Assembly (NCBI GenBank): GCA_009840595.1
Contig: VXNK01000165.1
Coordinates: 1-45,000, forward strand
Reading direction: 5' to 3'
Origin: Rhodospirillaceae bacterium
GTDB lineage: Bacteria; Pseudomonadota; Alphaproteobacteria; Bin65
DNA: 45,000 bases
In this document: positions 2,916-5,216 of the stretch, one piece after another
Numbering within the stretch: the stretch's first letter is position 1
Layout: every line of letters starts with the position of its first letter
Position numbers and translations under genes: made by a program
The notes under the pieces: model-generated
The model's database searches: none
Told to the model about the DNA's origin: nothing
The model's input: the letters and a program-made list of their open reading frames with translations, nothing else

Positions 2916-3359
2916 ATGGTGCGCAGAATCGTTGTCGATACGAACATTCTCGTCTCCGCGATCCTGTCGCCCGACGGCGCCGCGCGGGAGGTTCTCCGGC
3001 GATGCCTGACGGGCAAATACCGGCCCTTGGTCGGCAATGCCCTGTTTCTGGAGTATGAGGATGTCCTGTCGAGGGAACAGCTCTTCGCCGCGGCGCCGGT
3101 CGGTCCGGAAGACCGGGAGGCCCTGCTCGATGCGTTTCTCGGAGCGTGCCAATGGATCGAGATCGCTTTTCTCTGGCGCCCGAACCTGCCGGACGAGGCC
3201 GACAACCACCTCATCGAACTCGCGGTTGCCGGCAACGCAACCGCGATCGTTACCCACAACGCCAGGGATCTGGCGACAGGAGAACTGGCGTTCGACAGCT
3301 TTCGCGTCGTCGCGCCGGGCGACCTGCTGACGGAGGAGAGGCTGACATGGCTACCCTGA
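2916..3359 (+). CDS. PIN-domain toxin (putative toxin-antitoxin component, COG1569-like)
   Basis: This 147-residue protein is a single PIN domain, a Mg-dependent ribonuclease fold. Visible acidic positions are D8 in VVDTNILVS, Glu in the LFLEYEDVL helix, Asp in DEADNHLIELA and the C-terminal THNARDL strand. This matches the PIN_3 family annotated as toxins that cleave RNA; the target here is unknown. The ATG at 2916 follows a palindrome. The gene overlaps the next one by 13 bases, so toxin precedes antitoxin, the reverse of the classical order. It lies divergently from the helicase/DprA genes. Confidence 0.85.
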   Translation: MVRRIVVDTNILVSAILSPDGAAREVLRRCLTGKYRPLVGNALFLEYEDVLSREQLFAAAPVGPEDREALLDAFLGACQWIEIAFLWRPNLPDEADNHLIELAVAGNATAIVTHNARDLATGELAFDSFRVVAPGDLLTEERLTWLP

Positions 3360-3580
3360 CCATCCGGCTGCCCGACGCCCATCGCGACCGGCTGGCGGCG
3401 ATGGCCGCGCGCCGCGGCCTGAGCCTGAACAAGCTGATGGAGGAACTGTCTGTGCGGGCGCTGGCCGAACACGATACCGAACTGCGCTTCCGGATGCGCG
3501 CCGCGCGCGGCAACGCCGAACGCGGCCTGGCCGTGCTCGACGAACTGGACCGGCGGCACGGCGGGCTCGCAGAGCCCTGA
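3347..3580 (+). CDS. Small ribbon-helix-helix-type antitoxin (HicB/CopG-like)
   Basis: A 77-residue protein. It begins MATLTIRLPDAHRDRL, a typical ribbon-helix-helix beta strand, followed by the helices AAMAARRGLSLNKLMEEL, as in small CopG/HicB-like DNA-binding antitoxins. The C-terminal half (RFRMRAARGNAERGLAVLDEL) is charged and helical and probably wraps the toxin. The ATG lies inside the end of the PIN gene (13-base overlap), so translation is coupled. It is expected to neutralise the PIN nuclease and bind the palindrome at 2891-2912; both roles are inferred. Confidence 0.8.
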   Translation: MATLTIRLPDAHRDRLAAMAARRGLSLNKLMEELSVRALAEHDTELRFRMRAARGNAERGLAVLDELDRRHGGLAEP

Positions 3581-3657: not shown

Positions 3658-3686
3658 TTGCCAATCGGTGCCGCTGCCGTTACATC
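3658..3686 (+). promoter_or_regulatory. Candidate promoter for the riboswitch-metY transcript
   Basis: TTGCCA (3658-3663, five of six consensus bases), a 17-base spacer, then TACATC (3681-3686, a weak -10). The predicted start at about 3692-3694 coincides with the 5' edge of the riboswitch, which supports it; the -10 alone would not. Confidence 0.4.
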
Positions 3687-3690
3687 CTGC

Positions 3691-3752
3691 ACCGCTGCGC
3701 CGATTTGAGCACCAGCTTGCGGGCGCATAACAAATGCAGCTAAAGCGGCGCC
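3691..3752 (+). promoter_or_regulatory. SAM-II riboswitch aptamer upstream of metY
   Basis: This has the compact H-type pseudoknot of the SAM-II class. P1 is TGCGCC (3696-3701) with GGCGCA (3722-3727). The loop begins GATTTGA and contains GCTTGC. The pseudoknot forms from ATTTG in the loop (3703-3707) with CAAAT (3731-3735), followed by the conserved GCTAAAGCGG (3739-3748). SAM-II switches are known from alphaproteobacteria upstream of methionine genes and shut them off when S-adenosylmethionine is plentiful. Here the aptamer is about 180 bases before the metY start and is followed at once by an intrinsic terminator, so control is probably at transcription rather than at ribosome access. Confidence 0.85.
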
Positions 3753-3763
3753 GTGTCTCTGGC

Positions 3764-3795
3764 CCCGCTGGCAGGAACGCTGAAGCGGGTTTTTT
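3764..3795 (+). terminator. Rho-independent terminator, expression platform of the SAM-II riboswitch
   Basis: CCCGCT (3764-3769), a 14-base loop, AGCGGG (3784-3789), then six Ts (3790-3795). The left arm can instead pair with AGCGG at 3744-3748, the 3' edge of the aptamer. This gives mutually exclusive terminator and antiterminator forms. Confidence 0.7.
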
Positions 3796-3929
3796 GTTGC
3801 CCGTTTTTCCCTTTTCTGCCCGCGCCCGGCCGACCGGCGCCGCCGGCTGAATTTGCCGGATTCAAGACCGGCTTCGAGAACTGCGCCCGGGTTCCCGCCG
3901 GGCCGCGCAACAGGCCAGGAAAAGGATTC

Positions 3930-5216
<1,287 letters not shown>

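Follow-up and report, generated by a model that had tools for sequence, protein, structure and literature searches.

Upstream of metY, in a 45 kb stretch of DNA that was analysed in full (the window), a putative S-adenosylmethionine (SAM) aptamer is followed closely by a transcription terminator, which raises the question of whether the two act together as a SAM-dependent switch and, if so, whether such an arrangement is exceptional for SAM-II. We favour a SAM-II riboswitch that represses metY via transcription attenuation, a reading to which we assign a probability of roughly 0.8. The features referred to below are as follows:

3658-3685, + strand: candidate promoter read from the sequence; −35 box TTGCCA (3658-3663), −10 box TTACAT (3680-3685), 16-base spacer
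3687-3764, + strand: SAM-II aptamer (RF00521, SAM_alpha); whole model (1-79), 36.8 bits
3696-3727, + strand: stem P1; 3696-3701 with 3722-3727, from the covariance-model alignment
3709-3751, + strand: pseudoknot P2; 3709-3713 with 3747-3751, mismatch A3711/C3749, aligned to the SAM-II consensus
3744-3769, + strand: antiterminator hairpin predicted by folding; AGCGG 3744-3748 with CCGCT 3765-3769, inner GCCG 3750-3753 with TGGC 3760-3763
3764-3795, + strand: intrinsic terminator; CCCGCT 3764-3769 with AGCGGG 3784-3789 (six G+C-rich pairs), then T6 3790-3795
3930-5216, + strand: metY, O-acetylhomoserine aminocarboxypropyltransferase, 428 aa; TIGR01326, 609 bits (cut-off 495)

The SAM-II aptamer and its conservation

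The preliminary description had proposed a SAM-II aptamer, and this was borne out by the Rfam covariance models: when the whole 45 kb was searched with all families, RF00521 was the only one to reach the curators' threshold, matching 3687-3764 with an E-value of 7.8e-5 and a score that exceeds the cut-off of 36 bits by only 0.8 bits. A search for a second RNA family nearby (e.g. SAM-V), conducted at permissive settings, gave nothing significant except SAM-II. Stem P1 and the conserved core segments GATTT, CTTGC and GCTAA are all present, and the gene downstream, metY, belongs to methionine metabolism, as expected for SAM-II. In an alignment of eight leaders, five of the six P1 pairs are standard in every leader and invariant throughout. 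P2 is present, with four of its five positions paired (C3713-G3747, C3712-G3748, C3710-G3750 and G3709-C3751); to call it full, as had been done, is slightly too strong, given that A3711 stands opposite C3749. This mismatch (A/C, once T/C) recurs in seven of the eight leaders, the eighth (L011) having a G-C pair.

SAM-II precedes metY in each same-genus genome from which the search recovered a locus, with scores of 36.8-40.8 bits, and the same element precedes metY in public contigs (L026-L031). Within the genus, the aptamer, the terminator and the −35/−10 pair are conserved together upstream of the gene; in the eight aligned leaders, the aptamer core is invariant and the flanking bases are variable. 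Among metY relatives more widely, SAM-II was found at cut-off in only 8 of the 60 scanned (of 80 in all), from which the association with metY appears to be lineage-limited.

Promoter and coding sequence

The position of the candidate −35 and −10 boxes predicts a transcription start at ~3692, a few bases 5' of P1, in agreement with the earlier proposal of a promoter that sets the start at the aptamer edge. Both boxes align across the same-genus leaders, although a simple promoter scan based on the strict consensus gave no match here. The start codon of metY is ATG 3930, and ~180 bases separate the aptamer from the ribosome-binding region before it; direct masking of that region by P2 is, therefore, unlikely. 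An upstream extension of the frame to GTG 3753, which would carry a leader peptide across the terminator, was considered and rejected, as the genus alignment contains indels there.

Terminator and putative antiterminator

A hairpin with six Ts had been described just after the aptamer, and both arms and the T-run lie at 3764-3795, 21 bases past the GCTA core; the positions given for AGCGG (3744-3748) and for the two copies of CCGCT (3765-3769 and 3692-3696) were likewise all correct. Folding agrees, extending the CCCGCT/AGCGGG stem with an inner CAG/CTG helix (−13.9 kcal/mol). Since 14 bases separate the two arms, and the loop limit of our simple terminator scan was 8 bases, the hairpin was missed by that scan. 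In the leader alignment, the stem is kept across the genus, with the T-run shortened to TTTG in two leaders (L006 and L011).

The 3' strand of the aptamer is complementary to the left arm of the terminator over five pairs, a complementarity retained in the genus, and the AGCGG/CCGCT hairpin that results on folding is mutually exclusive with the terminator. Alignment of the leaders had been suggested as a way of looking for covariation. Across the eight leaders, 39 of the 40 cells for the outer five antiterminator pairs hold a standard pair, but most of these cells never vary and so say little. A C-to-T substitution at 3766 in L009 retains both the terminator pair (as U-G) and the antiterminator pair (as G-U). 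A change in L011 weakens both helices. At the window locus alone, the complementarity is within chance expectation: shuffling the left arm still gives a five-base match in 26% of cases, and the real arm has no advantage over shuffled ones in duplex energy. The leader shows no excess of fold stability over its shuffled versions (z = +1.09). In such G+C-rich sequence, fold z-scores are uninformative, for the leader and for the terminator segment alike. The minimum-energy fold of 3692-3796 already includes the terminator without ligand, such that termination could be the default state. The energies of the alternatives are comparable (−24.4 kcal/mol for P1 plus antiterminator; −24.4 to −28.5 kcal/mol for P1 plus terminator), and ligand could, therefore, tip the balance.

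SAM-II loci across the Alphaproteobacteria

The stronger evidence for the antiterminator comes from a swap test across the class. SAM-II matches were found in 207 of 387 genomes drawn from the Alphaproteobacteria, and 99 loci from 45 families were taken forward; these were drawn from the highest scorers and hence do not sample SAM-II at random. A single fixed rule gives a terminator in 71 of these 99 (38 families), compared with 66 of 294 dinucleotide-shuffled controls. The left arm begins at a median distance from GCTA of 20 bases (quartiles 17 and 22.5), close to the 21 bases in the window. For 74 non-redundant loci, pairing of the aptamer end with its own left arm has a mean of −8.35 kcal/mol, compared with −7.36 for arms swapped between loci and, when the arms were shuffled, −5.65; the own-arm value was never reached in 20,000 permutations, a result that is inflated by relatedness among the loci. 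Restricting the test to a single locus from each of 38 families (40 draws) left the effect in place, with a median z of −2.7 and a median p of 0.004, and the antiterminator model has, thus, been given a comparative test across these families. The usual pattern in the class consists of P2 CCGACC/GGTCGG with a terminator of the form CCCCGACC...GGTCGGGG-T; hence, the right arm of the terminator repeats the 3' strand of P2. AGCGG and AGCGGG in the window are the same device in another sequence.

Proposed mechanism and alternatives

Beyond the family match, terminator, conservation and complementarity observed here, the model infers that the aptamer binds SAM, that switching takes place and that it acts in the OFF direction. 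At low SAM, AGCGG 3744-3748, which overlaps the 3' strand of P2, would pair with 3765-3769, the terminator's left arm; formation of the terminator would, thus, be blocked, and RNA polymerase would read through into metY. With SAM bound, P2 would retain the AGCGG strand, leaving the left arm to pair with 3784-3789, and transcription would end at the T-run.

The ligand-free fold could also be read as a SAM-II aptamer joined to a constitutive terminator, which would lower metY transcription and yield a short leader RNA at any SAM level, with SAM acting at some other step (stability or translation). Sinorhizobium meliloti metA provides a precedent: its terminator, located after SAM-II, limits expression in both media, and a riboswitch-driven antiterminator could not be predicted (PMC9373788). 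However, complementarity of the antiterminator type persists in the genus and characterises SAM-II loci across the class, and the ~180 bases between the aptamer and the ribosome-binding region make little room for direct masking by P2, such that we regard constitutive termination as unlikely. It is very unlikely that the aptamer is a degenerate, near-threshold relic that has lost SAM binding: its score and the mismatch in P2 would fit, but the core is invariant in the eight leaders while the surrounding bases vary, and the low score is common to the whole genus.

The preliminary description had also envisaged a three-way switch, in which AGCGG pairs either with 3765-3769 or with CCGCT 3692-3696 in front of the aptamer. 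The first pairing is supported and kept in relatives, the more diverged of which lack the second partner. In the window genome, CCGCT 3692-3696 can pair with either AGCGG, and in the fold of 3687-3796, it is paired with the right arm of the terminator while the antiterminator hairpin is kept, which counts in favour of a working role with 3744-3748 or 3784-3788 as its partner. Nevertheless, this segment lacks conservation (of the eight leaders, two retain the 3692-3748 pair and four the 3694-3746 pair), and it lies at the predicted transcription start, where it may be partly untranscribed; a role for it is, accordingly, very unlikely, and we have rejected it as a component of the mechanism.

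Attenuation as set out above might be elaborated in a way that we consider unlikely: the aptamer of this genus would work with a P2 weakened by its conserved central mismatch, and AAG in the GCTAAAG core, immediately 5' of P2, would form part of the antiterminator, so that ligand-contacting bases would join the OFF/ON exchange, with the 5' leader perhaps adding a third, ON-favouring helix.

Comparison with known SAM-II systems

A terminator platform had been put forward as notable for SAM-II, a view contradicted both by the 71 of 99 class loci and by the literature (PMC1273637, PMC2258182, PMC9373788 and PMC9481103); if SAM-II is more familiar as a switch that conceals ribosome-binding sites, the probable reason is the Sargasso Sea RNA, a much-studied example of that type. 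Corbino et al. (2005) described SAM-II (the metA motif) with a promoter a few bases before P1 and an intrinsic terminator that lies past P2 and ahead of the ORF (PMC1273637). The window locus shares P1 and P2, the conserved core, a promoter just before P1, a terminator before the ORF and a methionine gene downstream; it differs in its short P2 with an A/C mismatch and in a score near the cut-off. In S. meliloti, the Rho-independent terminator after the metZ SAM-II aptamer is predicted to form upon SAM binding, and a terminated sRNA of ~100 nt is commoner under high SAM (Scheuer et al., 2022; PMC9373788). Here too, the aptamer is followed by a Rho-independent terminator and a sulfhydrylase gene, although the gene is of the metY (O-acetylhomoserine) rather than the metZ type and the terminator sequence differs. 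Tandem SAM-II elements have been published (44 examples), and where SAM-II stands in tandem with SAM-V, a terminator always follows the SAM-II member (PMC9481103); the window locus resembles both in having a SAM-II unit that is predicted to work through a terminator, but its copy is single. The locus is, therefore, real and ordinary, its use of a terminator being the usual SAM-II arrangement in Alphaproteobacteria. It contributes a well-conserved metY case to those SAM-II riboswitches for which action via a terminator is predicted, and leaves the general view unchanged, termination already being the commonest predicted SAM-II platform in this class.

A tandem pair occurs elsewhere in the same genome: two SAM-II aptamers (31.2 and 33.8 bits, both below the Rfam cut-off) lie before metZ (O-succinylhomoserine sulfhydrylase; TIGR01325, 560.6 bits) at 24184-24371 of contig C108 (1501-1688 of L003), and five other genomes of the genus also have two SAM-II matches there. 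The first aptamer is followed by a terminator, and the second by a hairpin (CCACGGA/TCCGTGG) that lacks a T-run. In another alphaproteobacterium, there is an apparent tandem SAM-II before metY (L084, 1059-1260), the second core of which, GATTTGATGGGCAGCTTGC...GCTAAAGCGCCACGG, was seen by eye and not reported at cut-off.

Other genes in the window

Upstream of the promoter, 2916-3580 encodes a PIN-domain protein (PF13470) and then a small ribbon-helix-helix-like protein (PF01402, just below cut-off), likely a toxin-antitoxin pair with the toxin-like gene first. On the − strand, 564-2795 encodes a DEAD-box/helicase C-terminal protein; towards the C-terminus of this protein there is also a weak match to phosphoribosyltransferase (below cut-off at 19.2 bits), a combination that would be unusual if real.
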